Source of the DNA: Idiomarina sp.
Lineage (GTDB): Bacteria; Pseudomonadota; Gammaproteobacteria; Enterobacterales; Alteromonadaceae
Reading direction: 5' to 3'
Assembly: GCA_020832105.1 (NCBI GenBank)
Contig: JAFIFH010000039.1
Location: forward strand, 1-64,000
Length of the DNA: 64,000 bases
The notes below the pieces were generated by a model. The model was not told the origin of the DNA and searched no databases. It worked only from the letters and a program-made list of their open reading frames with translations. Position 1 is the first letter of the stretch. The number at the start of each line of letters is the position of its first letter. This document shows positions 46,215 to 62,897 of this stretch, piece after piece. The position numbers and the translations under genes are program-made.

Positions 46215-46694
46215 GTGCTGGAACGAGCTTTCAATAGAAGTCGGTACCTGGTACTCATTATCGTAGCCACAAGCATGGTAGCGGCTATGACTCTTTATCT
46301 GAGCACCCTAATCGTAGTCTGGAACGTGGTGGTAGATGTCGTTACACAGCCGCCGGGCAGTGCGGATGGCGGTAAAAGACTTGCTGTCCGCCTGCTGAAG
46401 GTTCTTGATATATTATTGATCGCGCTGACCTTTCAGATTATTTCAATTTCTCTATACCGCCTGTTTATCAAAAGCAGCAGTGGACGGCCCTCGCAGTTCA
46501 TCAAGGTCCTGAGAATTAATAACTTTCATGACTTAAAAATCACCTTGCTGCACGTCACCATCGTGATTCTGGCCATTTTGTTTCTTGAACAGGCGGTAGA
46601 AGTAGGTGCTGCTTTGGAAACACTCTACTTTGGCGCGTCTGTGGCGGTGGTGATAGTTGCTATTGTATTTGCTACCAAACATATGGCCGACTAA
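46215..46694 (+). CDS. YqhA-like (UPF0114) membrane protein
   Basis: This 159-residue protein has four hydrophobic helices (about 10-35, 60-82, 105-125 and 132-155). The pattern LERAFNRSRYLVLI at the start and LKVLDILLIALTFQIISISLYRLF in the middle resemble the YqhA/UPF0114 family, function unknown. The start is GTG with a strong AAAGGAG four bases upstream. It follows the SbtA-type transporter on the same strand and is probably in its operon, so it could be an accessory or regulator of that transporter; this is inference. Confidence 0.6.
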   Translation: MLERAFNRSRYLVLIIVATSMVAAMTLYLSTLIVVWNVVVDVVTQPPGSADGGKRLAVRLLKVLDILLIALTFQIISISLYRLFIKSSSGRPSQFIKVLRINNFHDLKITLLHVTIVILAILFLEQAVEVGAALETLYFGASVAVVIVAIVFATKHMAD

Positions 46695-46711
46695 CCCGTC
46701 AGGCGTTTAAC

Positions 46712-46727
46712 TACCTCTTCTGGAGTA
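46712..46727. promoter_or_regulatory. NarL-type 7-2-7 binding site upstream of moaA
   Basis: TACCTCT-TC-TGGAGTA fits the NarL inverted repeat TACYYMT-N2-AKRRGTA with one mismatch (first base of the second heptamer). A further heptamer-like TACCCCC lies at 46732-46738. The centre is about 66 bp before the predicted transcription start of the moaA operon, a position suited to activation. Confidence 0.65.
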
Positions 46728-46750
46728 AGCCTACCCCCTCTTCAGAGCAA

Positions 46751-46779
46751 TTAACCTGTGCAGGGCAACGCGCTATTGT
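46751..46779 (+). promoter_or_regulatory. Predicted sigma70 promoter of the moa-mod operon
   Basis: TTAACC (46751-46756) and TATTGT (46774-46779) are spaced by 17 bp. Transcription would begin near 46786, just before the riboswitch. Both hexamers are imperfect, as expected for an activator-dependent promoter. Confidence 0.5.
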
Positions 46780-46792
46780 GCTTAGCGTACGC

Positions 46793-46897
46793 CGAGCTCC
46801 AGTTTCTAAACCTTCGGGCATGACGCTGGTGCCGTGGCAATACTGCCACCAGGGTGAGCGTGGAAACGCTCTCACCTCCCGACTTTGGAAAGGTGTG
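46793..46897 (+). ncRNA. Molybdenum cofactor (MoCo) riboswitch
   Basis: The moaA leader ends in the hallmark CACCTCCCGACTTTGGAAAGGT just before the start codon, as in the moaA leaders of E. coli and other gammaproteobacteria (Rfam MOCO RNA motif). Upstream lie a CTGGT/ACCAG stem with inner GGCA/TGCC, and a GGTGAGCG/CGCTCTCACC stem closed by a GGAAA-type loop. The element overlaps or abuts the AAGGTG ribosome site, so cofactor binding would most simply block translation of moaA. Boundaries are approximate. Confidence 0.85.
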
Positions 46898-46900
46898 GAA

Positions 46901-47872
46901 ATGCTCCAGGATACTTACTCCCGTCGCTTTACCTATTTGCGACTCTCAATTACAGAAAGCTGCAACTTTCGTTGCGACTACTGCTTGCCCGATGGTCCGG
47001 ACTGTCTGTCACGTCGAGGCGAAATTACCCTCCCTGAAATACGCCGGGTGGTTACCGCGTTCGCTAAACTTGGCACCCGTAAGATACGCCTGACCGGCGG
47101 TGAGCCCTGCCTGCGTAAAGATCTCTGTGAAATTATTGAGGTCTGTAAGTCAATACCGGGCATCGAAGAAGTGGCCCTGACCACCAATGGCTACCGCCTG
47201 CAGCGCGATCTTAACGACTGGGTTGCGGCCGGCCTCGACGCGGTGAATGTCAGCGTCGATAGCCTTGACCCTGCTACCTTCCATTTGATTACCGGGCAGA
47301 ACAAGCTGCCAGAGATCCTCGAAGGTATTGATATGGCAGCAGCGTCGCCCCTCAAGCGGGTGAAAGTGAATACTGTACTGCTGCAAGGCCATAATGGTGG
47401 TGAGTTAGCACAGTTCCTTGAGTACATCCGTGACCGCCGGGTGGCGCTGCGCTTTATTGAACTGATGCAAACCGGTGATAACGAGCAGTACTACCAACGC
47501 CATCACATTAGCGGCCAGTCAATTAAAGATAAACTGCTCGACGCGGACTGGACGTTACAGCAGAAAAGCCAGACCGCTGGCCCGGCCCAGGAATTCAGTC
47601 ACCCTGACTATCAGGGCAAGCTGGGTCTAATCATGCCGTATAGCAAGGATTTCTGTGCAGATTGCAATCGTTTGCGGGTGTCCAGTAAGGGGCAGCTATT
47701 TATGTGCCTGTTCACTGAGCATCACAACGATATTCGCGAGTTCTTGCAGTCCGATGATGTTGAGCCGTTGATGCAGCACTTGCAGTCGGTAATCAAGGGC
47801 AAAGATGCGACCCACTTTCTACATCAGCAGTTCACCGGTTCAACCAAAAACCTGGCGATGATAGGCGGATAA
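46901..47872 (+). CDS. moaA: GTP 3',8-cyclase (radical SAM)
   Basis: It catalyses, with MoaC, the first step of molybdenum cofactor synthesis, GTP to cyclic pyranopterin monophosphate. The protein has 323 residues. The radical SAM cluster motif is Cys21, Cys25, Cys28 (CNFRCDYC), the second 4Fe-4S cluster is held by Cys252, Cys255 and Cys269, and the C terminus ends in the required Gly-Gly. The start MLQDTYS is chosen because it matches the family and follows AAGGTG by eight bases; an in-frame ATG at 46778 lies inside the riboswitch leader. mobA follows after two bases. Confidence 0.95.
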   Translation: MLQDTYSRRFTYLRLSITESCNFRCDYCLPDGPDCLSRRGEITLPEIRRVVTAFAKLGTRKIRLTGGEPCLRKDLCEIIEVCKSIPGIEEVALTTNGYRLQRDLNDWVAAGLDAVNVSVDSLDPATFHLITGQNKLPEILEGIDMAAASPLKRVKVNTVLLQGHNGGELAQFLEYIRDRRVALRFIELMQTGDNEQYYQRHHISGQSIKDKLLDADWTLQQKSQTAGPAQEFSHPDYQGKLGLIMPYSKDFCADCNRLRVSSKGQLFMCLFTEHHNDIREFLQSDDVEPLMQHLQSVIKGKDATHFLHQQFTGSTKNLAMIGG

Positions 47873-47874
47873 CC

Positions 47875-48426
47875 ATGTCTCCCCACAGTGCTATTTTGTT
47901 AGCCGGCGGGCAGTCGTCGCGGATGGGAACCGACAAGGCATTACTACAAGTCGGTTCACGGACCTTGCTGGCGCATATGCAGGACCTGCTGGCGAAAAGC
48001 GGAATCGCAGACGTAGTGCTAAGCCGCAATGACGGACAACCCGGCCACGTGGCGGATATCGTACCCAATCGCGGTCCATTAGGCGGTATTCATGCAGGTT
48101 TAAGTGCGTGTCTGCATGACCGTGTGCTTATTATTCCGGTGGATATGCCATTACTCACTCCCATGACATTAGGTGCCTTATTGGCACCACCCTCGGGCTG
48201 CGTCCGCTTTATCGATTCTGAACTGCCATGTGTTGTCGAAAAGTCGCCACGTCTTTATGGGTATTTGCAGCGTCAGTTAAATATGTCCGGTGGTCAGTTA
48301 TCGGTGCGGAGGATGCTCGAGTTTCTCAACGCTACGCAACTTGAAAATACATGTGCCGCGGACCAGTTAACCAATACCAACACCCCCGAACAATGGAACC
48401 ATTATGCCCAATCACACCAATTTTGA
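47875..48426 (+). CDS. mobA: Molybdenum cofactor guanylyltransferase
   Basis: The enzyme adds GMP to Mo-molybdopterin to make the bis-MGD cofactor needed by nitrate reductase NarG. The protein has 183 residues, with the nucleotide-binding LLAGGQSSRMGTDKALL at the N terminus, the NRGPLGGIHAGL stretch and the metal-binding PVDMPLL. It starts two bases after moaA and overlaps moaB by 23 bases. Confidence 0.92.
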   Translation: MSPHSAILLAGGQSSRMGTDKALLQVGSRTLLAHMQDLLAKSGIADVVLSRNDGQPGHVADIVPNRGPLGGIHAGLSACLHDRVLIIPVDMPLLTPMTLGALLAPPSGCVRFIDSELPCVVEKSPRLYGYLQRQLNMSGGQLSVRRMLEFLNATQLENTCAADQLTNTNTPEQWNHYAQSHQF

Positions 48427-48928
48427 AGCCTTGAATATCGCGCTGCTAACTGTGTCCGACAAGCATACTGCGGACACTGACAGCACCGGCGACTGGCTGG
48501 AGCATGCAGTGCAACAGGCGGGCCATAGGCTGTCTGCACGGGATATGACTGCCAGTAATCGTTATTCAATACGCGCCCGAGTCTCCGACTGGATAGCCAA
48601 CCAAAGCATTCAGGTGATTGTGGTAAACGGTGGCACGGGGTTCGCTGCCCATAATTGCACCGAGGTTGCACTGAAGCCACTTCTTGATAAAGAAGTAGCC
48701 GGGTTTGGAGAGTTATTCCGCCAATTGTCGTTTCAGTCTATTGGTACCGCCAGCATGCAGTCCCAGGCCTTTGCCGGGCTTGCTAACCATACGATTATTT
48801 TTGCGGTGCCGGGCTCGGGTGGCGCAGCTAAGCTGGCGTGGGACGAACTGATTGCATCGCAACTGGATGCGCGTCAGGGCCCCTGTAATTTTGTGCCTCA
48901 TCTTATGAAGGAAACCTGCAATGGCTGA
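48404..48928 (+). CDS. moaB: Molybdopterin adenylyltransferase-family protein MoaB
   Basis: This 174-residue MoaB/Mog-fold protein contains VNGGTGFA (family GGTG), LLDKEVAGFGELFR and IFAVPGSGGA. In organisms that lack Mog, MoaB can adenylylate molybdopterin before metal insertion by MoeA. No mog gene is seen in this window. It overlaps mobA by 23 and moaC by 8 bases. Confidence 0.93.
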   Translation: MPNHTNFEALNIALLTVSDKHTADTDSTGDWLEHAVQQAGHRLSARDMTASNRYSIRARVSDWIANQSIQVIVVNGGTGFAAHNCTEVALKPLLDKEVAGFGELFRQLSFQSIGTASMQSQAFAGLANHTIIFAVPGSGGAAKLAWDELIASQLDARQGPCNFVPHLMKETCNG

Positions 48929-49400
48929 ACTAACTCATATCGACAGTAGCGGCAGCGCTCGCATGGTGGATATTAGCGATAAAACCGTGACCCGCCGTCA
49001 GGCCACCGCCACCGCGACGTTACACAGCCAAAAGGACGTGATTGCATTGCTTGAGCAGGCGGCGCAGAAAAAGGGTGACGTGATTGCCACGGCGCGGGTT
49101 GCCGGCATTATGGCGGCCAAGCGCACCAGCGATTTAATTCCCCTGTGTCACCCATTACCGCTCAATAAAGTCACCATTGATATTACGCCTGACAGCGCCA
49201 GTGGCAGTATCGCCATCGCTGCCACCTGCGTCACAGAGGGCAAAACCGGGATTGAGATGGAAGCGCTGACCGCAGCTTCGGTCACGGCGCTCACGCTCTA
49301 CGACATGTGCAAAGCGGTGGATCCCGCGATGGTGATTACTGATATCAAGCTGACAGAAAAAATCGGCGGCAAAAGCGGCCATTGGAGCCGCGAGAGTTAG
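48921..49400 (+). CDS. moaC: Cyclic pyranopterin monophosphate synthase
   Basis: It works after MoaA to form cPMP. The protein has 159 residues with the conserved MVDISDK start region, AAKRTSDLIPLCHPLPL, CVTEGKTGIEMEALTAAS and the catalytic Asp in LYDMCKAVD, and ends with KSGHW as in the E. coli enzyme. It overlaps moaB and is ten bases from moaD. Confidence 0.95.
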   Translation: MAELTHIDSSGSARMVDISDKTVTRRQATATATLHSQKDVIALLEQAAQKKGDVIATARVAGIMAAKRTSDLIPLCHPLPLNKVTIDITPDSASGSIAIAATCVTEGKTGIEMEALTAASVTALTLYDMCKAVDPAMVITDIKLTEKIGGKSGHWSRES

Positions 49401-49410: not shown

Positions 49411-49656
49411 ATGATTAAAGTAAAGTTTTTTGCTGCGTTACGCGAGCGGCTTGATTGCAACGAAACGGGCGTGGAGAACTTTCAGGGGACAGCTCATGAA
49501 CTGCTGGATATTCTGAAATCACGTTCAACACAATGGCGAGCGACATTGGAGGCGCAGCAGGTGTTGTGCGCGGTGAACCAGCAACTGGTGCCGCTCTCTG
49601 CCGAGGTGAATGAAGGTGACGAGGTGGCGTTATTCCCTCCGGTCACGGGCGGTTAA
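49411..49656 (+). CDS. moaD: Molybdopterin synthase sulfur-carrier subunit
   Basis: This 81-residue ubiquitin-fold protein ends in PPVTGG; the terminal Gly-Gly becomes the thiocarboxylate that donates sulfur to the pterin in the MoaD-MoaE synthase. VKFFAALRERL at the N terminus is typical. The activating enzyme MoeB is not encoded in this window. Confidence 0.93.
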   Translation: MIKVKFFAALRERLDCNETGVENFQGTAHELLDILKSRSTQWRATLEAQQVLCAVNQQLVPLSAEVNEGDEVALFPPVTGG

Positions 49657-49668: not shown

Positions 49669-50127
49669 ATGACGATACGTATACGGGTACAGAATGACGA
49701 CTTTGACATGGCTGCCGAGTATGAGCGCCTGCGACGCAACGACAGTTATGGTGCGGTGGTAACCTTCACTGGGTTGGTCCGTGAAGTACAGGGTGATCAT
49801 CTGCAGGCCATGCATCTTGAGCATTATCCAGGGATGACCGAGAACGTATTAATGACCATTGTTAAGCAAGCAGACGCACGCTGGAACCTTGGTGACGTGA
49901 CGGTGATTCACCGGGTCGGATCGCTCACACTTAACGAACAGATCGTGCTGGTTGCAGTGTCCAGTGCTCATCGGGTAGATGCTTTCGAGGCTGCCCAGTT
50001 CATTATGGATTTTCTTAAAACCAAAGCGCCATTCTGGAAAAAAGAAGCGACTACGCGCGGCGAGCACTGGGTTGAGGCAAAAGATAGCGATGACAAAGCG
50101 GGCCAGCGTTGGAGCGTAAACAAGTGA
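49669..50127 (+). CDS. moaE: Molybdopterin synthase catalytic subunit
   Basis: This 152-residue large subunit of molybdopterin synthase has GAVVTFTGLVRE near the N terminus, HRVGSLTLNEQIVLVAVSSAHR in the middle and the lysine-rich active-site stretch APFWKKEATTRGEHW near the C terminus. Its stop overlaps the GTG start of modA by four bases, joining cofactor synthesis and molybdate uptake in one transcript. Confidence 0.95.
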   Translation: MTIRIRVQNDDFDMAAEYERLRRNDSYGAVVTFTGLVREVQGDHLQAMHLEHYPGMTENVLMTIVKQADARWNLGDVTVIHRVGSLTLNEQIVLVAVSSAHRVDAFEAAQFIMDFLKTKAPFWKKEATTRGEHWVEAKDSDDKAGQRWSVNK

Positions 50128-50876
50128 TTAAGTGTTGGTTTGGGATGTTATTGGTCGTGGCGTTCAGTTTCAATACTCATGCTGCCGAGCTACGCATTGC
50201 TGTAGCGTCCGATTTGCGTTTTGTTATGCCGAAAATCGAGCAGGCGTTTCAGCAAGCGTTTGCTGATACCCAAACCCAGGTAATCTACGGCTCGTCAGGC
50301 CGGTTTTTCAGCCAAATCAGTAATGGCGCGCCTTTTCACATATATATGTCAGCCGACATTGAATACCCTAAACGCCTGCAACAAGAGCAGCCGGGAACCG
50401 GTGATGTTGTTGCCTATGGTGATGGCCAGTTGGCGCTCTGGCAGCGCGGTCGAACAAGCCCGGATATGGACGCACTCAGGGCAGCACGGCGTATCGCCAT
50501 CGCTAATCCGCAGCACGCGCCATATGGCCAAAAGGCGTTGCTATGGTTGCAGCAGTTACCCGAGTGGCCAGAGCTGGAAGGCAAGCTCGTCTATGCCGAA
50601 AGCGCAGCCCAGGTAGCTCACTTTGTTCGCAGTGGTAGCGCGGAAGTGGGCATCACCGCTCTGGCGTTAGTGTTAAGCGAAGAACTAAGAAGGCAGGGGA
50701 GTTACCTGACTATACCGCCAACTGATGGTTACCCAGCCATCCAGCAGGGCATGGTGATTACTGCACGTGGTGCAGCCCACTCAGCAAGCCAGGACTTTGT
50801 CGACTTTATGCAGTCGGAACAGGCCCGGCAATTACTGTTAGATGCTGGGTTTATCTTTCCTGATGCTGCCAGGTAG
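50124..50876 (+). CDS. modA: Molybdate ABC transporter substrate-binding protein
   Basis: The 250-residue periplasmic binding protein has a signal peptide (about 1-20, ending NTHA) followed by ELRIAVASDLRFVMPKIEQAF and GSSGRFFSQISNGAPFHIYMSAD, which line the oxyanion site. The GTG at 50124 is preferred because it overlaps the moaE stop (GTGA) and has GGAG nine bases upstream; a TTG at 50109 would add five residues. It captures molybdate, and possibly tungstate, for ModBC. Confidence 0.9.
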   Translation: MIKCWFGMLLVVAFSFNTHAAELRIAVASDLRFVMPKIEQAFQQAFADTQTQVIYGSSGRFFSQISNGAPFHIYMSADIEYPKRLQQEQPGTGDVVAYGDGQLALWQRGRTSPDMDALRAARRIAIANPQHAPYGQKALLWLQQLPEWPELEGKLVYAESAAQVAHFVRSGSAEVGITALALVLSEELRRQGSYLTIPPTDGYPAIQQGMVITARGAAHSASQDFVDFMQSEQARQLLLDAGFIFPDAAR

Positions 50877-50888: not shown

Positions 50889-51566
50889 ATGTCTGCAGCA
50901 GATTTACAAGCCATTACGCTCACCCTCAGGCTCGCGTTTATCTCCACGCTGATACTGCTGGCGTTGTCTTTACCTTTGGCCTGGTGGCTCAGTCAGACCC
51001 GCAGTCGGTTAAGGGTCTTCTGCGAAGCCTTGATAGCACTCCCGTTAGTGCTACCTCCAACCGTGCTTGGCTTTTATTTACTGCTGGCGCTGGGGCCCAA
51101 CGGACCGATTGGTGGCACCCTTGAGCGGCTTGGCTTGACTCATCTGGCGTTTAGTTTTACCGGTCTGGTGATTGGGTCAGTTATATACTCGCTACCTTTT
51201 GCCGTGCAGCCTTTGCAAAACGCCTTTGCCCAAATAGACCGCCGTTTACTGGATGCTTCGGCGTGTCTGCGAGCAAAGCCGCTGGATCGTTTTGTCAGTA
51301 TTGTCTTGCCCCTTTCAAAGCGCGGTTTTCTCACCGCGGCGGTGCTGTCGTTCGCGCATACCATCGGCGAGTTTGGAGTGGTGCTGATGATAGGGGGGAA
51401 TATCCCTGGTGAAACTCAGGTCGTGTCCATTGCTATTTACGATCATGTCGAAGGGCTTAATTATGGCGCAGCTAACCAGTTGTCACTGTGGCTGCTCGGC
51501 TTTTCGCTGGTCGTGTTGATGCTGGTGTACGGCTTTAACCGGCAAGGGGGGATGTTACGCACATGA
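50889..51566 (+). CDS. modB: Molybdate ABC transporter permease
   Basis: The 225-residue inner-membrane permease has about five to six helices and the EAA loop pattern ASACLRAKPLDRFVSIVLPLSKRG for contact with the ATPase, followed by SFAHTIGEFGVVLMIGGNIPG, typical of ModB. Its stop overlaps the modC start by four bases (ATGA). Confidence 0.94.
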   Translation: MSAADLQAITLTLRLAFISTLILLALSLPLAWWLSQTRSRLRVFCEALIALPLVLPPTVLGFYLLLALGPNGPIGGTLERLGLTHLAFSFTGLVIGSVIYSLPFAVQPLQNAFAQIDRRLLDASACLRAKPLDRFVSIVLPLSKRGFLTAAVLSFAHTIGEFGVVLMIGGNIPGETQVVSIAIYDHVEGLNYGAANQLSLWLLGFSLVVLMLVYGFNRQGGMLRT

Positions 51567-52615
51567 GCCTAATTATTTCGGTCGCGTTCCAGCGTGACAG
51601 CTTTGCGCTCGATGTAAACGCCTGCCTGCCCACGTCGGGCATTACTGCCATATTTGGCCCCTCAGGCTGTGGTAAAACGACCTTGCTCAGGGCTGTGGCC
51701 GGGCTAGAAGAGCAAGTTAGCGGTTCAATCCTGTTCAATGGCGATACCTGGCTGACTGCTCAAAGCGCCATGCCTGCCTGGCAACGCCCGGTAGGCATGG
51801 TATTTCAGACCCCAAGCTTATTCCCGCATCTGACGGTTGCAGGCAATCTGCAATACGCTCGCAAACGCGCGACCCAGCGTCAGGACTCCCTCTCCGTTGA
51901 GCGGATTACCCAGCTGACGGGTATCGGAGAGCTGCTCTCACGTAAACCGGATCAGCTTTCAGGTGGACAACAACAACGGGTCGCCATCGCCCGTGCGCTG
52001 GTGGGCTGCCCTGCTTTGTTGCTAATGGACGAACCCCTGGCGAACCTTGACGGAGGAGCGCGGCATGAGTTGCTGCTGCTATTACGGCAGATTCATATCG
52101 AGCTTGATATCCCCATCCTTTATGTCAGCCACCAATTAGATGAAGTGGTGCAGCTTGCGGATCACCTGATGTTTATGCAGAACGGACAGGGGAAGCTGGT
52201 TGATGGTTTACAGGCGCAACTTAATTCAGAGCGAGGCAGGCAACTTAGTGGCGGCGCTAATGTGGTTTTTGTTCAGCCCTGCGATACTCAGCAAATAACT
52301 AACATGCAGGTGTTACAGGTAGGCGAGCAAAAATTGCAGATACCCGACCCGGGCTATGCGGTTGACCGGCTTTTAATTTATGCCAATGACATTAGTATGA
52401 GCCGGGAGGCGTGGGCGGATTCAAGTATTACCAATCAACTCAGTGTCCAGCTTGAGTCCATTGAACCAGCCACTCACCAGGCTGAGGTGTTTTTAAAACT
52501 TCGCCTGGGGTCGCAGTATTTGCTTGCCCGTATCACCCGGCAGTCCGCAGCACGTTTGCAGTTGCAAGCCGGGCAACAATTGATCGCACATGTGAAAGCA
52601 GTCGCCTTACGCTAG
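51563..52615 (+). CDS. modC: Molybdate ABC transporter ATP-binding protein
   Basis: The 350-residue ATPase of the ModABC importer has Walker A GPSGCGKTT, the ABC signature LSGGQQQR, Walker B LLMDEPL and the switch His in VSHQLDE. The C-terminal part (about 280-350) is a MOP/TOBE domain that may bind molybdate and shut down uptake. Its stop overlaps the convergent moeA stop by four bases. Confidence 0.94.
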   Translation: MSLIISVAFQRDSFALDVNACLPTSGITAIFGPSGCGKTTLLRAVAGLEEQVSGSILFNGDTWLTAQSAMPAWQRPVGMVFQTPSLFPHLTVAGNLQYARKRATQRQDSLSVERITQLTGIGELLSRKPDQLSGGQQQRVAIARALVGCPALLLMDEPLANLDGGARHELLLLLRQIHIELDIPILYVSHQLDEVVQLADHLMFMQNGQGKLVDGLQAQLNSERGRQLSGGANVVFVQPCDTQQITNMQVLQVGEQKLQIPDPGYAVDRLLIYANDISMSREAWADSSITNQLSVQLESIEPATHQAEVFLKLRLGSQYLLARITRQSAARLQLQAGQQLIAHVKAVALR

Positions 52616-53826
52616 CGCAGCGGTGAGGTAAAGGGTATGACAGTGACCCATTCTCCCTCTTGCACCGACCCCTGCTCCGCATCGAGCTGCACATAACAAT
52701 TGCCTTCCGCCAGAGACGTCAGCATTGCTGAGCCTTGTGGGCCGGTTGAGAAAACACGGCTTTGGTCGCCATAAGGCTGAATCAATGCACGTTGAAAGTC
52801 GGCCCGCCCAGGACGCTTTTTGAAAGCTGTGCCAGCTTGCAATCGCAGAGCAATACGATCGTAGTCCTGAATTCCCCGCATTTTTTGGATTATAGGTAGC
52901 GCAAGCTGATCAAATGTCACTACTGCAGACACCGGGTTGCCAGGCAGACCAAAAAACCAGGCGTCATTTACTTTGCCAAAGGCGAAAGGCTTGCCGGGCT
53001 TCATTGCAACTTTCCAGAATCCGACCGAGCCATAACTATCCAGGATCTGTTTGGTGTAATCGGCGTCGCCTACTGAAACCCCGCCACTACAGATAATGGC
53101 ATCCGCCTGCTGACTGGACGATTCAAAAGCTTCACGAATGGCGTCTTTGTCATCTGCAATTAACCCCAGGTCAATGACCTCGCAGCCAAGTCGCTGCAGC
53201 ATCGCTTTCAGCACATACCGGTTACTGTCATAAAGCTGCCCGGTACTCAGGGTTTGCCCTGGTTGAACCAGCTCATCACCGGTTGAAAACAGGGCGACCC
53301 TGAGCCGCTGGCGGACGTTGATATCGGCTCTGCCCAATGACGCCAGTAGCCCGATATCGACGGGTGTAATGCAGTGTCCGGCCGTATAGATCGCTTCGCC
53401 CTGACGGATCTCCTCGCCTTGTCGGCGAATGTTGCTGCCAACTTTCAGTTCAGCGTGAATGGTAATCATGTCGCCGTTAGCTTCGGTATCTTCCTGAGCA
53501 ATCACGGTGTCGGTGACCGCTGGTACCTGAGCACCGGTCATGATTCTAATGCAGCACCCCGGCGGACAGTCCCCAGTGTAAGGGTGCCCCGCCAACGCGG
53601 TACCAACTAACTTTAATGAGGTGCCAGAGCTTACGTCTTCTGCCTTGAACGCGTAGCCGTCCATGGCAGAGTTGTCGTACGCAGGAACGTCCATGGTGGA
53701 AGACACAGGCTCAGCCAGCACTCTGTCCAGGCTGTCTTCAATGGCTATGGTTTCGCCGCCGGTCAATGAGCCAACAGCAGAGTGCATATGTTCAAGCGCT
53801 TCAGCGACAGACTTCATCGTTGTCAT
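52612..53826 (-). CDS. moeA: Molybdopterin molybdenumtransferase
   Basis: It inserts molybdate into adenylylated molybdopterin. The protein has 404 residues, with DVPAYDNSAMDGYA, RIMTGAQVP, STGDELV, SGGVSVGDADY, PGKPFAFG and LPGNPVSA motifs covering the MoeA domains. A ribosome site AGGGG lies about nine bases before the ATG. It begins four bases after the narL stop on the same strand, so narL and moeA look like one operon. It ends head-on against modC. Confidence 0.95.
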   Translation of the reverse strand: MTTMKSVAEALEHMHSAVGSLTGGETIAIEDSLDRVLAEPVSSTMDVPAYDNSAMDGYAFKAEDVSSGTSLKLVGTALAGHPYTGDCPPGCCIRIMTGAQVPAVTDTVIAQEDTEANGDMITIHAELKVGSNIRRQGEEIRQGEAIYTAGHCITPVDIGLLASLGRADINVRQRLRVALFSTGDELVQPGQTLSTGQLYDSNRYVLKAMLQRLGCEVIDLGLIADDKDAIREAFESSSQQADAIICSGGVSVGDADYTKQILDSYGSVGFWKVAMKPGKPFAFGKVNDAWFFGLPGNPVSAVVTFDQLALPIIQKMRGIQDYDRIALRLQAGTAFKKRPGRADFQRALIQPYGDQSRVFSTGPQGSAMLTSLAEGNCYVQLDAEQGSVQEGEWVTVIPFTSPLR

Positions 53827-53830: not shown

Positions 53831-54472
53831 TCACCCCTTTTGGTTGACCATCCACACTGCGGCTTCTACGCGTGAACGTAAACCAAGCTTTTTCAGTAAA
53901 TGTTTGACGTGTACCTTCACCGTGCCGTCGGAAATATCAAGCTCCCGGGCAATCACTTTATTGCTCATGCCTTTGGCGATCAGGCTAAGAATTTCGTATT
54001 CGCGATTAGTCAGGCTGTTGAGATTAGCTTGATCACTGGAGAACGGCTTACGAATAGCGCTCGCCAGTACTTCGGTGACATTCTCACTCAGTACCATTTT
54101 GCCTTCCAGCGCTTTGCGCAATTGCTTGAGCAACAACTCAGGGTCCATATCTTTGAGCAGGTAGCCATTTGCGCCACCGCTAATAGCCTGCACGACGTCT
54201 TCGTCAGCGTCTGAAACGGTGAGCATGACGATCTTTGATTCAACACCTCTTTTACGCATCCCGCGCAAGGTCTCGAGCCCGTCCATGCCCTGCATGTTCA
54301 GGTCCAGAATAATCAGGTCTGGTTGAAGCTCAGTGGCGAGCTCAATCGCCTCAGCACCGTTGTTGATTTCGCGAATGACATCGAGGTCATCTTCTAAGGA
54401 CAATAGTTGTTTTAACCCCTTAAGGAGTAGGGGATGGTCGTCGACCAGCATAATAGTTGCTTTGTCGCTCAT
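53831..54472 (-). CDS. narL: Nitrate/nitrite response regulator
   Basis: This 213-residue regulator has a receiver domain (acidic pair Asp11/Asp12, phosphorylated Asp57 in IILDLNMQG, Lys in YLLKDM) and a LuxR-type helix-turn-helix (LTNREYEILSLIAKGMSNKVIARELDISDGTVKVHVKHLL) closely resembling NarL. It should be phosphorylated by NarX and activate nar genes. AAGGAG lies eight bases before the ATG. It lies 264 bp downstream of narX rather than overlapping it, and four bases before moeA. Confidence 0.94.
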   Translation of the reverse strand: MSDKATIMLVDDHPLLLKGLKQLLSLEDDLDVIREINNGAEAIELATELQPDLIILDLNMQGMDGLETLRGMRKRGVESKIVMLTVSDADEDVVQAISGGANGYLLKDMDPELLLKQLRKALEGKMVLSENVTEVLASAIRKPFSSDQANLNSLTNREYEILSLIAKGMSNKVIARELDISDGTVKVHVKHLLKKLGLRSRVEAAVWMVNQKG

Positions 54473-54736: not shown

Positions 54737-56551
54737 TTAGCTGCCTGTTTCGGCGAATTGTTCGTTCATATACTCTGGGGTAAACGAGAAGTAGACGCCG
54801 GTCCCACCGTCTTCCCGGCTTTGCACTGTAAGCAGCCCGTCGAGATGTCGACTCCGCTCCTGCATAATAGCCAGGCCGTAGTGATTGAGTTTTTCCGGAT
54901 GGTCGGGAAGGCCTACCCCGTCATCTTCCACACTCAATTGGATCAGACTGGCTTCACTGATAAGAGAAATCTTGAGCCAGCCGCCCTGGCTGTGATTGAC
55001 TGCGTTTTGCGATGCCTCCCGGATGATCTGCAGTAGGTGAACCTCTTCGTGTGGGGTGAGCGGCACATCTTCGAGCTCGTATACCAGGTGTATTTGCATG
55101 TCAGTGCGGTCTTCGAGCTGGTCTACCGTAGTTTCCAGGGCATGCAGCAGGCCTTTGCCATCCACCTTGAGTCGGAATGTGGTCAATAACTCCCGTAGCT
55201 GCCGGTATGCCGAGTCGAGACCTTCTTTAAGCTCATTGGTCACATCGTCAAGTAATTCCCGATTATTGGATTCTGTGGCTTTGCTCAGTCGTACCACCTG
55301 AATTTTAAGATACGACAGCGCCTGCGCCAGCGAGTCATGTAATTCCCGGGCGATGACGGTGCGCTCTTTCATTAACGCCAGCCGCCGCAGGTTTTCTTCT
55401 TCAGATTTCACGTTCATCGCCAGTGACAATTGTTCAGCGACGGACCGCAGTAACTGTTGTTGCCAGCTATCCAGCCTTTGCACGGCATCCAGTCGGGCAA
55501 TCAGCACCCCATATTGCTTTTGGTCGCGGGACAGTGGATATCGGTAGATGGCGCGACCATTTTCAATCGTCACACCGTCACAGGTCATTACGCAGGCCTC
55601 GCAGTTATTGGTGATGCAAGGTGTGGTGCCATTGTCCTCCGGCTGGAACTGATGATACGGCCGCTTACCGGCCTCTGTCAGCAGGCAGAGCTCGATGTCG
55701 TCTACTTTTATAAGGGCCCGCAAAGCCTCAACGATTTTACTGTAATCATGGTAGCCCATGGATTTCTCGTTCACTTCACGAGAGATCTCATAGAGGAACT
55801 GCAGGGTTTTATGGCTACGCATAATTTCGTGGGTTTGTTTATCAACCCGGTCTTCGAGGTCACCATACATATAAGTGATGGTGTCACTCATTTTGTTCAG
55901 GGTACGGCCCAGAACCCCTAGCTCGTCATTGCTCTGCAAATGGGACCTGGCGGTAAAGTCCCCCTGGGAAATATGCCTGGCCTGCTGAATGAGCGACGAC
56001 AGGGGCGCCTCAAAGCGTGATTTAAGCCAGAACAACACGACTGCCGCAAGCATAATGGTTAATAGTAAGGCGATAACCAATACCACCCGCAAGGCAAGAA
56101 TTTTGTATTCGGCGTCTTGCTGAGTCATGCCGACAAAACGGTCCAATTGGCCGACTAACGCCTGTAAGCGGCCATCCAGCAGCTCGGGTTCCAACCCGTT
56201 TATAAAGGCATTTTCTGTGACTTGCCACATCTCATGCGCTGTGCGGAATGCTTCCGCAGTCTGGTCATCGCGATAATAGTAGGAGGCGAAGACTGGATGG
56301 TGCCACTTCTCACTGACTTCGGATAGCAGGGAAATGGCCTGGTCAGGATCATGCTGGTAAATAAAGCCTATGCGATAGGTTTCCATGCGCAGTGAACCTG
56401 AGTGATTGATCAGGTGCGGGTCATGCACCGCCCGATCCGACAACCAGTAGGAGGCAATCACAGTCGCACAGGCCAAAAGGAGAATAGCCACCAGGGCCAG
56501 CGTGATTTTACTGACCAGAGTGGTAGGGCCGATACGTTTAGGTGGAGGCAT
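54737..56551 (-). CDS. narX: Nitrate/nitrite sensor histidine kinase
   Basis: The 604-residue membrane kinase has two TM helices framing a periplasmic sensor with the P-box (INHSGSLRMETYRIGF), a HAMP linker, a central module with a cysteine cluster (C-x4-C-x2-C-x3-C in CITNNCEACVMTC), a HisKA_3 domain with phosphorylated His405 (VIARELHDSLAQ) and an ATPase domain (ASQNAVNHS, DDGVGLPD). It senses nitrate and nitrite and controls NarL. The ATG at 56551 with AGGA upstream is preferred over a start 30 codons earlier that matches no family sequence. It is divergent from narG. Confidence 0.94.
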   Translation of the reverse strand: MPPPKRIGPTTLVSKITLALVAILLLACATVIASYWLSDRAVHDPHLINHSGSLRMETYRIGFIYQHDPDQAISLLSEVSEKWHHPVFASYYYRDDQTAEAFRTAHEMWQVTENAFINGLEPELLDGRLQALVGQLDRFVGMTQQDAEYKILALRVVLVIALLLTIMLAAVVLFWLKSRFEAPLSSLIQQARHISQGDFTARSHLQSNDELGVLGRTLNKMSDTITYMYGDLEDRVDKQTHEIMRSHKTLQFLYEISREVNEKSMGYHDYSKIVEALRALIKVDDIELCLLTEAGKRPYHQFQPEDNGTTPCITNNCEACVMTCDGVTIENGRAIYRYPLSRDQKQYGVLIARLDAVQRLDSWQQQLLRSVAEQLSLAMNVKSEEENLRRLALMKERTVIARELHDSLAQALSYLKIQVVRLSKATESNNRELLDDVTNELKEGLDSAYRQLRELLTTFRLKVDGKGLLHALETTVDQLEDRTDMQIHLVYELEDVPLTPHEEVHLLQIIREASQNAVNHSQGGWLKISLISEASLIQLSVEDDGVGLPDHPEKLNHYGLAIMQERSRHLDGLLTVQSREDGGTGVYFSFTPEYMNEQFAETGS

Positions 56552-56876
56552 GGTAAACGTCCTGGATATGGTGGTGAATTTGTATCTACATATTAGCACT
56601 ATCCCCTTGCGCGCATACAGCTGAAGCAGAAGAGCTACCACTTTTGCCTTGAGGGTAGTTTAAAGCCCCGGGCCAGGCCCGCCTTTTAATGCGTTATTCC
56701 TTTTAAAACAAAATCTTAAGTAACTTCCTGGCACTATCACCTTGGTGGTAGTAGCCCTGTTTTGGTCAATTAACCCCCTATTTCGCGGGGGGAAAAAATC
56801 CAGCATGATGCGCTTCATACAACATCCAGTCCGTGAGATCTAAGCAACATAACGGATAAGACCAGGAGTCAAAGCT
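56552..56876. promoter_or_regulatory. narX-narG divergent control region (325 bp)
   Basis: It contains an inverted repeat CTATCACC-TT-GGTGGTAG (56734-56751, seven of eight pairs) with the 7-2-7 geometry of NarL sites but off-consensus heptamers. A NarL-like heptamer TTAAGTA (56716-56722, one mismatch) and a possible FNR half-site TTGGT (56762-56766) are also present. CCCCC and GGGGGG tracts (56774-56792) can form a short hairpin in the narG leader. No ORF is credible here. Promoters could not be placed with confidence. Confidence 0.45.
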
Positions 56877-59800
56877 ATGAGCCATTTACTCGACAGATTG
56901 CGTTACTTTAAGGCGCGCAAAGAGTCATTTTCTGATAACCATGGGATGACCACCGAAGAAGATCGGACCTGGGAACAGGGTTACCGTCAACGTTGGCAGC
57001 ACGACAAAGTGGTGCGTTCGACCCACGGTGTTAACTGTACCGGCTCTTGTAGCTGGAAGATCTACGTGAAAGACGGCCTGGTCACCTGGGAAACGCAGCA
57101 GACCGACTATCCGCGGACTCGCCCTGACTTGCCAAACCATGAACCGCGCGGCTGTCCTCGTGGTGCCAGCTACTCATGGTATATCTACAGCGCAAACCGC
57201 TTGAAATATCCGAAAATGCGCCAGCAGTTAATGAAGCTGTGGCGTGAAGCCCGTGAGCAGCACAGTGACCCGGTAGATGCCTGGGCCTCGATCGTCAGTG
57301 ACCCGGTAAAAGCGAAAAGCTACAAAGAGCGTCGCGGCCTGGGTGGCTTCGTGCGCGCGTCCTGGCAGGAAGTCAATGAGCTCATCGCAGCTTCAAACGT
57401 CTACACCGCAAAGGAATATGGGCCGGATCGGATTAGTGGGTTCTCGCCGATTCCAGCGATGTCGATGGTGTCTTATGCTGCTGGCTCGCGATATCTGTCA
57501 CTGATTGGCGGTAACTGCCTGAGTTTCTACGATTGGTACTGTGACTTACCTCCAGCATCACCGCAGGTTTGGGGCGAACAAACTGACGTGCCCGAGTCTG
57601 CCGATTGGTTCAACTCTAACTACATCATTGTATGGGGCTCAAACGTTCCACAAACCCGTACGCCGGATGCTCACTTCCTCACCGAGGTTCGTTACAAAGG
57701 GACCAAAACCTGTGTCATCACCTCGGACTACTCAGAAGCGTCTAAATTTGGCGACACCTGGTTAGCACCGCGTCAGGGTACTGATGCAGCACTAGGTATG
57801 GCGTTCGGTCACGTGATTCTGAAAGAATTCTATGTTGAGAGCCAGAGCACTTACTTCAGCAACTATGTGCGTAAATACACGGATATGCCGATGCTGGTCA
57901 TGCTTGAAGACGATGGTGGTCGCCTCAAACAGGGTCGATTCCTACGTGCTGCGGATCTCATGGACAACCTCGGTGAAGACAATAACCCGGACTGGAAAAC
58001 TATTGCCTTGAACGAAGAGGACGGTCGCCTGACCAGCCCGAACGGTGCCATTGGGTATCGCTGGGGTGGTGAGCAGGGCAACTGGAACCTTGAGCAGAAA
58101 GATAAAGACGGCGAAGTTTCTTTAGCACTATCACTCAAAGACACGGCCGACGAGATTGCTGAGGTAGCATTCCCATACTTCGGCGGTGCTCCGCACGAGT
58201 ACGAGTACTTTCAGCATACCGACCACGACGAAGTGCAAATGCGTCGCATCCCGGCCAAACGCATCACCCTGAAAAATGGTGAAACTGCGTTGGTCGCCAC
58301 GGTCTATGACTTGATGCTGGCGAACTACGGTGTTGACGATGGCTCTGGTGACCCGGGCCGTGCCACCAGCTTTGAAGACGATATTCCATATACGCCAGCA
58401 TGGCAGGAAAAAATCACCGGTGTACGCCCAGCCGATGTGATCCGTGTGGCCCGTGAATTTGCGCGCACAGCCGACAAAACTCAGGGTCGCTCAATGATTA
58501 TCGTTGGTGCCGCTTTGAACCACTGGTACCACATGGATATGAACTACCGCGGCATTATTAATATGTTGATGATGTGTGGTTGTGTTGGTCAGAGCGGTGG
58601 TGGCTGGGCGCACTATGTGGGGCAGGAAAAACTGCGTCCACAAACCGGCTGGCAACCGCTCGCTTTTGGTCTTGATTGGCAGCGCCCACCGCGTCATATG
58701 AACGGTACGTCGTTCTTCTACAACCATTCGAGCCAGTGGCGTTATGAAAAGCTGGACATGAGCGAGGTGGTGTCACCGTTAACCTCGAAGAATAAGTGGA
58801 AGAGCAGCATCATCGACTACAACACCCGTGCTGAGCGCATGGGCTGGTTACCGTCTGCGCCGCAGCTGGGCACCAACCCACTGGGCGTGGCTAAGGCTGC
58901 TAAAGACGCAGGTATGGAAGTCAAAGATTATGTGGTGCAGCAGCTTAAAAATGGCGAGATAAAATTTGCCAATGAGCAGCCGGACAATCCGCAGAACTTC
59001 CCGCGTAACATGTTTATCTGGCGTTCGAACCTGCTCGGTTCGTCAGGTAAAGGCCATGAGTACATGCTCAAGCATTTACTCGGCACTAAACATGGTTTGT
59101 TGGGTAAAGACCTGGGCGAATTTGGTGGTCAGAAACCAGACGATGTTGAGTGGGTTGATGATGGCGCTGAAGGCAAAGTAGACCTGTGGGTCACACTCGA
59201 CTTCCGCATGTCAACGACTTGTCTGTACTCAGACATAGTGCTGCCGACTGCTACCTGGTACGAAAAAGACGACATGAATACGTCAGACATGCACCCGTTC
59301 ATTCACCCGCTTACCGCTGCTATCGACCCGGTATGGGAAGCGCGCAGTGACTGGGAAATCTTCAAAGGTATCGCGAAAGAATTCTCGCGGGTCTGTGTAG
59401 GACATCTGGGTGTTGAGCAGGACGTGGTCACCGTACCTATGTTGCATGACACGCCTGCAGAGCTGGCTCAACCATATGGCGTTAAAGCTTGGTGGAAAGG
59501 CGAGTGCGAGGCGATCCCGGGGCAAACCATGCCAAATATTACCGTAGTCGAGCGTGACTATCCGAACACTTACTATCGTTTCACATCGCTTGGTCCGTTA
59601 ATGGAAGAGTTGGGGAACGGTGGTAAAGGTATTGGTTGGGATACCAAAGATGAAGTGGCACTGCTTGGTGACCTGAACTTGCGTCACACTGACGAAGGTG
59701 TTCACAAAGGCCGTCCGCGCATCGACACAGCGGTTGACGCTTGTGAAGTGATTCTGTCACTGGCACCGGAAACCAATGGTCAGGTCGCAGTGAAGGCATG

Positions 59801-60599
59801 GGAAGCGTTAGGTAAGATTACTGGTCGCAGTCATACCCACCTGGCACTGCCAAAAGAAGACGAAAAAATTCGTTTCCGTGACATTGTCGCGCAGCCACGC
59901 AAAATCATTTCCTCGCCCACCTGGTCAGGCCTGGAAGACGAGCATGTGTCTTATAACGCGGGTTACACCAATGTTCACGAGTTGATTCCATGGCGCACCA
60001 TTACCGGCCGCCAGCAGTTCTATCAGGACCACGAATGGATGCGCGATTTCGGTGAGAACCTATGTGTGTATAAACCGCCGATTAACCTGAAAACCGTTGA
60101 GCCGGTGCTGAATAAGAAGTCGAATGGCAATAAAGAAATAGTCTTGAACTTCATTACACCGCACCAGAAGTGGGGTATTCACAGCACTTACTCAGACAAC
60201 CTGTTGATGCTGACACTGTCCCGCGGCGGTCCGATAGTCTGGATCAGCGAAGTTGATGCTGCAGAAGCCGGCATCGTGGATAACGACTGGATTGAAGTAT
60301 TCAACGTCAACGGTGCATTGAGTGCCCGAGCAGTTGTATCGCAGCGTGTGCCAGAAGGTATGAGCATGATGTATCACGCTCAGGAAAGAATTATTAACAC
60401 CCCAGGCTCTGAGCAAACCGGTACCCGTGGCGGTATTCACAACTCAGTCACCCGGGCCGTGATGAAGCCAACACACATGATTGGTGGCTATGCCCAGCAG
60501 TCATACGGCTTCAACTACTACGGCACAGTGGGATGTAACCGCGACGAGTTCGTCATTGTTCGCAAGATGGACAAAGTCGACTGGTTAGACACCGAATAA
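56877..60599 (+). CDS. narG: Respiratory nitrate reductase alpha subunit
   Basis: This 1240-residue molybdenum bis-MGD catalytic subunit reduces nitrate to nitrite on the cytoplasmic side of the inner membrane. The FS0 cluster ligands are His50, Cys54, Cys58 and Cys93, at the same positions as in E. coli. The molybdenum-ligand Asp lies in FYDWYCDLPPASP (near residue 223). Length agrees with the family (about 1250). AGGAG lies eight to ten bases before the ATG. It has no Tat motif, as expected for cytoplasmic Nar. First gene of narGHJI. Confidence 0.97.
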   Translation: MSHLLDRLRYFKARKESFSDNHGMTTEEDRTWEQGYRQRWQHDKVVRSTHGVNCTGSCSWKIYVKDGLVTWETQQTDYPRTRPDLPNHEPRGCPRGASYSWYIYSANRLKYPKMRQQLMKLWREAREQHSDPVDAWASIVSDPVKAKSYKERRGLGGFVRASWQEVNELIAASNVYTAKEYGPDRISGFSPIPAMSMVSYAAGSRYLSLIGGNCLSFYDWYCDLPPASPQVWGEQTDVPESADWFNSNYIIVWGSNVPQTRTPDAHFLTEVRYKGTKTCVITSDYSEASKFGDTWLAPRQGTDAALGMAFGHVILKEFYVESQSTYFSNYVRKYTDMPMLVMLEDDGGRLKQGRFLRAADLMDNLGEDNNPDWKTIALNEEDGRLTSPNGAIGYRWGGEQGNWNLEQKDKDGEVSLALSLKDTADEIAEVAFPYFGGAPHEYEYFQHTDHDEVQMRRIPAKRITLKNGETALVATVYDLMLANYGVDDGSGDPGRATSFEDDIPYTPAWQEKITGVRPADVIRVAREFARTADKTQGRSMIIVGAALNHWYHMDMNYRGIINMLMMCGCVGQSGGGWAHYVGQEKLRPQTGWQPLAFGLDWQRPPRHMNGTSFFYNHSSQWRYEKLDMSEVVSPLTSKNKWKSSIIDYNTRAERMGWLPSAPQLGTNPLGVAKAAKDAGMEVKDYVVQQLKNGEIKFANEQPDNPQNFPRNMFIWRSNLLGSSGKGHEYMLKHLLGTKHGLLGKDLGEFGGQKPDDVEWVDDGAEGKVDLWVTLDFRMSTTCLYSDIVLPTATWYEKDDMNTSDMHPFIHPLTAAIDPVWEARSDWEIFKGIAKEFSRVCVGHLGVEQDVVTVPMLHDTPAELAQPYGVKAWWKGECEAIPGQTMPNITVVERDYPNTYYRFTSLGPLMEELGNGGKGIGWDTKDEVALLGDLNLRHTDEGVHKGRPRIDTAVDACEVILSLAPETNGQVAVKAWEALGKITGRSHTHLALPKEDEKIRFRDIVAQPRKIISSPTWSGLEDEHVSYNAGYTNVHELIPWRTITGRQQFYQDHEWMRDFGENLCVYKPPINLKTVEPVLNKKSNGNKEIVLNFITPHQKWGIHSTYSDNLLMLTLSRGGPIVWISEVDAAEAGIVDNDWIEVFNVNGALSARAVVSQRVPEGMSMMYHAQERIINTPGSEQTGTRGGIHNSVTRAVMKPTHMIGGYAQQSYGFNYYGTVGCNRDEFVIVRKMDKVDWLDTE

Positions 60600-60618
60600 C
60601 TGGAGTGAGGTATTCACA

Positions 60619-62154
60619 ATGAAAGTAAGAGCGCAAATCGGCATGGTATTGAATCTGGACAAGTGTATTGGTTGTCACACTTGTTCCATTACCTGCAAAA
60701 ACGTATGGACCTCACGCGAAGGCGTTGAATATGCCTGGTTTAACAACGTTGAAACCAAGCCAGGTATCGGCTTCCCAAAAGAATGGGAAAACCAGGACAA
60801 GTGGAAGGGTGGCTGGACGCGTCAGGCCAACGGCAAGCTGATTCCACGTATCGGTGGCAAGCTGCGGATTCTGGCAAATATTTTTGCCAACCCGGACATG
60901 CCGGTGATCGATGACTACTACGAACCTTTTGATTTCGACTACGAGCATTTGCACACCGCGAAGGACGTCAAGCACCAACCGACGGCTCGCCCGCGTTCGC
61001 TGATCAGCGGTAAGCGCATGGAGAAAATTGAATGGGGTCCGAACTGGGAAGAGATCCTCGGTACAGAGTTTGAGAAGCGTAAGAAAGACAAAAACTTTGA
61101 CGACGTTGTGCAAAAAGAGATCTACGGCCAGTTTGAAAAGACCTTCATGATGTACTTGCCGCGTTTGTGCGAGCACTGTCTGAACCCGACCTGTGTGGCG
61201 TCATGCCCATCTGGCGCTATTTATAAGCGCGAAGAAGACGGCATCGTACTGATTGACCAGGACAAGTGCCGAGGCTGGCGGATGTGTGTGTCTGCGTGCC
61301 CCTACAAGAAGATTTACTTTAACTGGAAGAGTGGCAAGTCAGAGAAATGTACCTTCTGTTACCCGCGCATTGAAGCCGGGCAACCGACCGTATGTTCGGA
61401 AACCTGTGTAGGCCGGATTCGTTATCTGGGTGTGTTGTTGTATGACGCAGACAAAATTGCAGCGGCAGCAAGTACGCCAAACGAGAAGGACCTGTATCAG
61501 GCGCAGCTCGATATCTTCCTTGACCCGTTCGACCCGGAAGTTCAGGCAGCGGCACGTAAAGAAGGTATTTCTGAGAACTGGCTGCAAGCAGCTCAGCGCT
61601 CGCCGGTCTACATGATGGCGATGGACTGGAAAATTGCGCTGCCATTGCACCCTGAATATCGGACCTTGCCTATGGTGTGGTACGTACCGCCACTGTCGCC
61701 CATTCAAAGTGCTGTAGAAGCGGGGCACGTAGGGATGAACGGGGAAATTCCTGACCTTAAGTCACTGCGGATTCCACTGCGTTACCTGGCTAACATGCTC
61801 ACCGCCGGTGATGAAGCACCCATTGTCAGAGCGCTGGAGCGGATGATCGCGATGCGTGCCTACAAACGTTCGCAACAGGTGGACGGTGTGGAAGACTTTG
61901 AAGTGCTGAAACAAGTTGGCCTGACCCCGAACCAGGTGGAAGAAATGTACCGGTACATGGCGATTGCCAACTATGAAGATCGCTTTGTTATCCCTACCAG
62001 CCACAAAGCGTATGCCGAAAATGCCTATGGCATGAAAGGCGAATGCGGCTTCAGCTTTGGTAATGGCTGTAGCGGTGGTGAAAGTAACCTGAATATCTTT
62101 GGTGGCAAGAACAAAGGTGTTCGTCAGGTTATCCCAGTCACCATGAAGGAGTAA
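60619..62154 (+). CDS. narH: Respiratory nitrate reductase beta subunit
   Basis: The 511-residue electron-transfer subunit has four cysteine groups: CIGCHTCSITC near the N terminus, CEHCLNPTCVASC around residue 184-196, CRGWRMCVSAC with the Trp that marks the 3Fe-4S cluster, and CTFCYPRIEAGQPTVCSETC. It carries electrons from the haem subunit NarI to NarG. It is 19 bases from narG. Confidence 0.97.
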   Translation: MKVRAQIGMVLNLDKCIGCHTCSITCKNVWTSREGVEYAWFNNVETKPGIGFPKEWENQDKWKGGWTRQANGKLIPRIGGKLRILANIFANPDMPVIDDYYEPFDFDYEHLHTAKDVKHQPTARPRSLISGKRMEKIEWGPNWEEILGTEFEKRKKDKNFDDVVQKEIYGQFEKTFMMYLPRLCEHCLNPTCVASCPSGAIYKREEDGIVLIDQDKCRGWRMCVSACPYKKIYFNWKSGKSEKCTFCYPRIEAGQPTVCSETCVGRIRYLGVLLYDADKIAAAASTPNEKDLYQAQLDIFLDPFDPEVQAAARKEGISENWLQAAQRSPVYMMAMDWKIALPLHPEYRTLPMVWYVPPLSPIQSAVEAGHVGMNGEIPDLKSLRIPLRYLANMLTAGDEAPIVRALERMIAMRAYKRSQQVDGVEDFEVLKQVGLTPNQVEEMYRYMAIANYEDRFVIPTSHKAYAENAYGMKGECGFSFGNGCSGGESNLNIFGGKNKGVRQVIPVTMKE

Positions 62155-62157
62155 TGT

Positions 62158-62886
62158 ATGCAATTTATTCGAGTACTTTCCCTGTTGCTGGACTATCCGA
62201 CAGCAGCATTGGTAGAAGCAAAAGACGACTTATTAGCGGCGGTGGAGTCTGCGCCGCTGCGTACCACCCGTAAAGAACAGCTGAAGCTATTCATTAAGAA
62301 CCGCTGCAGCGGTGACCTGATGGACTGGCAGTCTCACTACGACTCGTTGTTCGAGCGCGGCCGTGCTGTGTCACTGCTGTTGTTTGAACACGTACATGGC
62401 GAATCGCGGGACCGTGGTCAGGCGATGGTTGACCTGATGCGTGAGTACCGCGAAGCCGGGCTCGATATCGGAGTGCGTGAATTGCCGGATTACATTCCAC
62501 TGTATCTTGAGTTCCTGAGTACCCAGGGCGAGGATAACCTGCAAATCGGACTAGCGGACGTAGCGCATATCCTCTCGGTTCTGGCATGTCGCCTGGAGCA
62601 GCGGGACAGTGATTACGCAGTGATTTTCTATAGCCTGATTGATCTCTCTGGTGCTGAGTTGGACCTCGACTCAGTGCGCGAACAAATAAAATCAGAACAA
62701 CGTGACGACACCAAAGAAGCAATGGATAAAGTCTGGGAAGAAGAGATGGTGACCTTCGGCCCTGACTCCGGCTCCGATGGCTGCGGTAGCGCGACTAGTC
62801 GACCCTCTGCGGGTCAGCAGCGCCAGGATCACGTGCCGATTAACTGGGCAGATGCAAAAAATGCAGCTGCACCAACTGTTGAGTGA
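62158..62886 (+). CDS. narJ: Nitrate reductase assembly chaperone
   Basis: This 242-residue helical chaperone of the TorD/NarJ family has LSLLLDYPTAALVEAKDDL at the N terminus and SVLACRLEQRDSDYAVIFYSL in the core. It holds apo-NarGH until the molybdenum cofactor and clusters are inserted. GGAG lies six bases before the ATG, and it begins three bases after narH. Confidence 0.94.
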   Translation: MQFIRVLSLLLDYPTAALVEAKDDLLAAVESAPLRTTRKEQLKLFIKNRCSGDLMDWQSHYDSLFERGRAVSLLLFEHVHGESRDRGQAMVDLMREYREAGLDIGVRELPDYIPLYLEFLSTQGEDNLQIGLADVAHILSVLACRLEQRDSDYAVIFYSLIDLSGAELDLDSVREQIKSEQRDDTKEAMDKVWEEEMVTFGPDSGSDGCGSATSRPSAGQQRQDHVPINWADAKNAAAPTVE

Positions 62887-62897
62887 GGAGTCTGACA

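Follow-up and report, generated by a model that had tools for sequence, protein, structure and literature searches.

In this marine Idiomarina strain, the moa–mob–mod operon is very probably controlled jointly by nitrate-activated NarL and by a riboswitch that senses the molybdenum cofactor (Moco). The window (the whole 64-kb stretch of DNA analysed here) has an intergenic region that extends from a UPF0114 gene, ending at 46694, to the moaA start codon (ATG) at 46901 and holds both a NarL-type palindrome and a riboswitch, arranged as follows:

46712..46727, + strand: site 1, a NarL-type 7-2-7 palindrome, TACCTCT-TC-TGGAGTA (centre 46719.5, at about −66.5)
46735..46750, + strand: E2, a NarL-like element, CCCCTCTTCAGAGCAA (centre at about −43.5, 23 bp 3' of the palindrome centre; 1 mismatch to the NarL core CYYMTNNAKRRG)
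46774..46779, + strand: predicted −10 hexamer TATTGT (start point expected at about 46786, on the basis of conserved spacing)
46778..46910, + strand: Moco riboswitch aptamer RF01055 (score 89 bits, gathering score 36; model positions 1–135)

The NarL consensus used here was TACYYMTNNAKRRGTA, i.e. TACYYMT-NN-AKRRGTA, which consists of inverted TACYYMT heptamers with 2 bp between them. The stretch 46712–46727 has both heptamers in this 7-2-7 arrangement and a single mismatch, in full agreement with the preliminary description of this DNA. What sets the palindrome apart from chance is its position and conservation, not its count. The 64-kb window showed no excess of such palindromes (36 matches at ≤3 mismatches versus 33.3 expected from shuffles), and neither did the whole genome (16 sites at ≤1 mismatch versus 15 for a reversed-pattern control). 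Among the genome-wide counts only the concentration of sites on the nar contig is informative: 7 of the 16 one-mismatch sites are found on this contig, which makes up 177 kb of the 3.03-Mb genome (P = 1.7e-5). Gene context was recorded for these seven, the nine others being on other contigs. Two (12726 and 54414) fall within genes and five are intergenic, namely those before moaA, between narX and narL (54641), between a divergent narK pair (69061), in the narK–nrdG gap (72265) and in the nnrS–DGC gap (79417).

Several of these sites deserve mention on their own account. The one-mismatch NarL-type site at 54641–54656, within the 264 bp that separate narX from narL, suggests that narL may regulate itself. 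The sites at 69061, 72265 and 79417 (contig positions beyond the window) each lie no more than about 120 bp from a perfect FNR box, and their location near narK genes, the anaerobic ribonucleotide reductase gene nrdG and the nnrS–DGC gap points to a wider predicted NarL/FNR regulon. Upstream of narG, inspection by eye revealed a perfect inverted repeat that is off the NarL consensus (TATCACC-TT-GGTGGTA, 56735–56750) and an inverted repeat of a C-run and a G-run (56773–56793).

Conservation of the palindrome was assessed in a set of 80 named moaA relatives, in which narL was scored at ≥60% identity inside the examined stretch, a site was accepted at ≤3 mismatches 150–350 bp before moaA and the riboswitch was recognized by a simple pattern. 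Palindrome and riboswitch were both present in all 28 loci with narL in the stretch. The remaining 52 loci, whose narL status is known only within the examined stretch, comprised 24 with a site (19 with the riboswitch pattern and 5 without it) and 28 without; the ≤3-mismatch threshold admits chance matches, such as those within 200 bp of 16 of 81 riboswitches from genomes devoid of narL. The preliminary description had staked its proposal on conservation in close relatives, where the palindrome is indeed kept, both in 44 of the 45 nearest named loci and in another genome of the same genus (G122). The locus L058, a second moaA on the contig of L056 that has neither the site nor the riboswitch pattern, was left out of the footprint alignment, which consisted of the 44 other nearest loci and the window. 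In the Moraxella and Psychrobacter loci (L110, site at −196; L107, site at −252), moaA is preceded by NarL-like palindromes with 1 and 2 mismatches and no riboswitch by the simple pattern; after these two examples, NarL may control moaA without a riboswitch.

The footprint alignment showed an information content below 0.3 bit at most of the 40 bases upstream of the palindrome and of 0.7 to 2 bits at its outer positions, a difference inflated by aligning the loci on their best consensus match; the bases 3' of the site were not used in aligning. The palindrome varies among the 45 loci in the way that the NarL consensus allows (C/T at Y5, C/A at M6, G/T at K11, G/A at R12 and G/A at R13), at its inner seventh base C prevails (28 loci) over T (12 loci), and exact TAC and GTA ends occur together in 35 of the 45. 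A TANNNT motif is located 44–47 bp 3' of the palindrome in every one of the 45 loci, compared with 2.6 expected from shuffles. With this spacing, the palindrome centre lies roughly 64.5 to 67.5 bp before the expected start point. A search of 46500–47000 found no sigma-70 promoter scoring ≥9/12, and the assignment of the predicted −10 hexamer is based on conserved spacing, not on consensus strength. The distance of about 66 bp between palindrome and promoter that was given in the preliminary description holds for the expected start point at about 46786 (66.5 bp from the centre); the −10 hexamer itself is 54.5 bp away and is not part of a consensus promoter.

Between these two features, the core of E2, CYYMTNNAKRRG, was found at ≤3 mismatches and a spacing of 21–25 in 44 of the 45 loci, with 9.0 expected from shuffles. 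E2 lacks the TAC/GTA ends in the window, so it is put forward as a NarL-like element, i.e. a proposed degenerate second NarL site at about −43.5. In two other genomes, G145 and G014, E2 appears by eye to be nearer to a full palindrome. An FNR-like or ArcA-like site was considered at this position and set aside since the NarL core fits better, the alternatives having been judged by eye.

These data bear on whether the palindrome has been kept merely through block inheritance of the nar–moa region, with no working NarL site at moaA. The site does accompany the narL-linked moa lineage, and our statistics ignore shared descent. Simple co-inheritance would hardly account, however, for the persistence of the palindrome, E2 and the −10 hexamer while most of the upstream flanking bases have been randomized, nor for a distance between the site and the −10 hexamer that varies by ≤3 bp over 45 loci. 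The site also spans six genera (Idiomarina, Rheinheimera, Alishewanella, Thalassolituus, Marinimicrobium and Gilvimarinus), and in the last three of them narL sits on the opposite side of moaA. We regard block inheritance without function as quite improbable.

The riboswitch match, which extends over the full length of RF01055 and is the only one in the assembly, bears out the earlier view that a Moco riboswitch leads into moaA. Compensatory changes, with both sides altered and pairing kept, were seen at 14 of 31 predicted pairs in 20 aligned sequences, and each position of the GUGGC/GCCAC stem is paired in 19–20 of the 20. Judging from the order of the stems, GUGGC/GCCAC would be P3, the stem that goes with the molybdenum rather than the tungsten cofactor (PMC2408646). 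The ligand is presumably Moco. The 3' end of the aptamer spans GGAAAGG (46887–46893) and the moaA ATG at 46901, and because of this overlap the control is likely to be translational, as in Escherichia coli. The first few aptamer positions precede the expected start point, and a transcript starting at 46786 would lack the weak pairs at the beginning of P1 in the Rfam model, which counts against the proposed arrangement.

As read from the sequence, the system would work in the following way. A promoter directly before the aptamer would drive the moa–mob–mod operon, and phosphorylated NarL, supplied by the nearby narXL genes, would bind the palindrome at about −66.5 and probably also the degenerate second site at about −43.5. 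With nitrate present, NarL would activate transcription of the operon; the position of the palindrome suits activation without proving it. The transcript would start at the edge of the Moco riboswitch, which overlaps the moaA ribosome-binding region and start codon, and as the cofactor builds up the aptamer would close and moaA translation would be blocked. Nitrate would in this manner switch on the synthesis of the cofactor and the import of molybdate at the same time as nitrate reductase, and the cofactor would switch them off. The genes concerned, and the neighbouring nar genes, are these:

46901..47872, + strand: moaA, GTP 3',8-cyclase (TIGR02666)
47875..48426, + strand: mobA-like nucleotidyltransferase gene (PF12804)
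48404..48928, + strand: moaB (TIGR02667 slightly below cut-off, 217.6 of 222.4 bits)
48921..49400, + strand: moaC
49411..49656, + strand: moaD (ThiS family, PF02597)
49669..50127, + strand: moaE
50109..50876, + strand: modA
50889..51566, + strand: modB
51563..52615, + strand: modC
52612..53826, − strand: moeA, convergent to the moa–mod run and downstream of narL
53831..54472, − strand: narL, response regulator and proposed binder (NF007935, above cut-off)
54737..56641, − strand: narX-type nitrate sensor kinase gene (best match NarX, 406 of 578 bits, below the equivalog cut-off)
56877..63596, + strand: narGHJI, respiratory nitrate reductase, a consumer of the cofactor

Joint control of the nine-gene set from moaA to modC, probably as a single transcript, is plausible because these genes either overlap or are separated by ≤12 bp. 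The genome is Idiomarinaceae-like, its MoaA being 74% and its NarL 86% identical to those of the Aliidiomarina celeris locus (L031). Plasmid records searched with MoaA gave matches that were all below 60% identity and were set aside.

Analysis of the distribution of narL was extended to a family set of 147 genomes, 109 of which had a Moco riboswitch match under strict filters that possibly missed some, giving 115 riboswitches. The genomes divide sharply by NarL: a protein 66–100% identical to that of the window was found in 34 genomes and one at 53% in four more, and the best match in the remaining genomes had E = 5e-46 (50%, partial). Six of the 34 narL genomes (G026, G029, G070, G104, G131 and G132) lack a riboswitch match and were excluded, which left 28 genomes with 34 riboswitches to be compared with the 81 riboswitches of the others. 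A site with ≤2 mismatches at −85 to −50 before the aptamer was found at 18 of the 34 riboswitches in narL genomes versus none of the 81 in other genomes (Fisher 5e-12), and with ≤3 mismatches at 24 of 34 versus 2 of 81 (Fisher 1e-14); these values treat related genomes as independent and are uncorrected for shared descent. When the site was allowed anywhere within 200 bp, the counts were 19 of 34 versus 2 of 81 at ≤2 mismatches and 26 of 34 versus 16 of 81 at ≤3. Position thus matters, since the 200-bp search raises the counts of the genomes lacking narL, and the 3-mismatch threshold alone over 200 bp is weak evidence. A pattern for E2 taken from the alignment was found before 17 of the 34 riboswitches of narL genomes versus 0 of 81 of the others, although this pattern was drawn post hoc, fits 35 of the 45 loci and is not matched by the window itself. 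With related genomes counted as independent, occurrence of the predicted site tracks narL.

Nearness of a riboswitch to narL was judged from coordinates: 25 riboswitches share a contig with narL within about 54 kb, and those of G110 and G136 are on separate short contigs. At ≤3 mismatches, ten of the 34 riboswitches were misses. Seven of these are far from narL, namely the sole riboswitch of G079 and the second copies in G037, G062, G094, G096, G125 and G145. The other three (of the 27 not known to be far from narL) are close to it, with variant sites in G145 and G014 and a site displaced to −123 in G051. Six genomes have two riboswitches, and in five of the six a site with ≤3 mismatches precedes the narL-near copy, compared with none of the six other copies. 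The narL-near copies have ≤2 mismatches in G037 and G094, the variant TATCCCTTTTGGGGAA in G062, G096 and G125, and 4 mismatches in G145, whose second copy has a 3-mismatch match at −87, just beyond the −85 to −50 interval. Within the genus, G122 has NarL, a riboswitch and a site, TACCCCACAAGGAGTA, at −65, and G010 and G059 lack both a NarL of this type and a riboswitch match.

A regulator other than NarL that recognizes a similar palindrome could in principle use this site: its C-rich arms (TACCCC-N4-GGGGTA) and a seventh base that is less conserved than in the NarL consensus would fit such a protein. Site presence follows NarL, however, and no ModE was found in the assembly. The NarL of the window, moreover, retains a TVKVHVKH stretch equal to that of E. 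coli NarL (1a04), which we take to be the DNA-contacting helix. We hold use by another regulator to be very improbable.

The preliminary description saw no ModE-like gene in the window, and this absence extends to the whole assembly (92.8% complete): TIGR00637 had zero matches there or in the congeneric genomes G010, G059 and G122. In the family set the profile matched 47 of 147 genomes, with five matches above 90 bits, one of them above the cut-off, and most others near 25 bits; the latter look like cross-matches. ModE matches of about 92 bits lie less than 2 kb from narL in two genomes of genus g17 (G097:C1:1941175 and G017:C17:20583), and ModE is not missing everywhere. As a direct regulator of the moaA promoter in this strain, ModE is unsupported, no match to it having been found in the assembly. 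Direct control of this promoter by FNR is unsupported as well, given that the best FNR box (TTGATNNNNATCAA-like) in the 70 bp upstream of the palindrome has 3 mismatches. The genome as a whole does have many perfect FNR boxes (14 versus 1 for the control). In the 45 aligned loci, an FNR-like box with ≤2 mismatches was found within 70 bp upstream of the palindrome in 16, with 1.3 expected; 11 of these are Idiomarina or Pseudidiomarina loci (L032–L042), in which the boxes start 17–42 bp upstream of the palindrome. The A. celeris locus L031 has no such box before its palindrome.

The boxes in those 16 loci suggest that elsewhere NarL probably acts together with FNR, and E. coli NarL can either activate or repress FNR-dependent promoters (PMC3688515). 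NarL might accordingly bind at moaA but repress, or chiefly tune another regulator such as FNR, in which case nitrate would not be the main on-switch. We consider this unlikely for the window, whose promoter has no FNR box of that quality and whose NarL-type sites end upstream of the −10 hexamer and the start point; the need for the cofactor in nitrate respiration likewise argues for activation. Chances seem evenly balanced for a broader proposal that goes beyond activation by NarL, namely that in this lineage NarL has replaced ModE and FNR as the gate of cofactor synthesis, with nitrate as on-signal and the cofactor as off-signal for a moa–mod operon that accompanies the nar genes, and that genomes with two riboswitch-led copies split them between nitrate respiration and general use.

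The leader of E. coli moaABCDE is controlled by FNR, ModE and a Moco riboswitch (PMC2408646). The arrangement described here is similar in having a Moco aptamer over the moaA ribosome-binding site with activator sites upstream, but predicted NarL-type sites are found where FNR and ModE act in E. coli (PMC2408646), no ModE gene was found in the assembly, and a mobA-like gene and modABC belong to the same run of genes. E. coli differs less from this arrangement than the preliminary description had it, when it named ModE, FNR and the riboswitch as the main controls there: moaA of E. coli is listed as FNR-activated in nitrate, and co-activation by NarL or NarP has been suggested for its operon group (PMC3688515). 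Nitrate-raised moa expression is thus common to that system and to our proposal, although the E. coli entry names FNR in nitrate rather than NarL, and the accessible part of that paper yielded no NarL site for moaA (PMC3688515). NarL, NarP, ArcA, NAC, Fur and FNR are among the E. coli regulators of molybdoenzyme and cofactor operons (PMC10845959).

The nearest precedent is the prediction of NarP sites at moaABCDE in three of four Pasteurellaceae and three of four Vibrionaceae, with conserved sites in the columns AA, HI, HD, VV, VP and VC and none in PM, VF, YP and YE (PMC1805755). Both studies place sites for a nitrate response regulator upstream of moaABCDE, but the regulator is NarL here and NarP there, the ten genomes of that study being without NarL. 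Its main text does not use the word riboswitch, and we found no tandem geometry or narXL link in the parts accessible to us (PMC1805755). Since Moco RNAs precede the cofactor operon of Haemophilus ducreyi (PMC2408646), the two papers in combination already imply a nitrate regulator and a Moco RNA on one operon. Anoxic Pseudomonas aeruginosa has more cofactor-synthesis transcripts, with no tie to NarL found in the accessible text (PMC4731081), and NarP is present in most Shewanella, in a paper whose main text lacks the term moa (PMC3223726). Within the accessible portions of the open literature we found no report of NarL at a riboswitch-led moa operon (PMC10845959, PMC1805755, PMC3688515, PMC3223726, PMC2408646, PMC4731081). 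The predicted combination is thus a variant of known regulation, one for which the comparative support far exceeds the evidence from a single site, and it extends in concept the 2007 NarP predictions. It would match supply to demand, in that one signal would induce both a molybdoenzyme and the supply of its cofactor and metal, with RNA feedback on the same transcript, and genomes that have two riboswitches allow a nitrate-gated copy to be compared, in a natural setting, with an ungated one.
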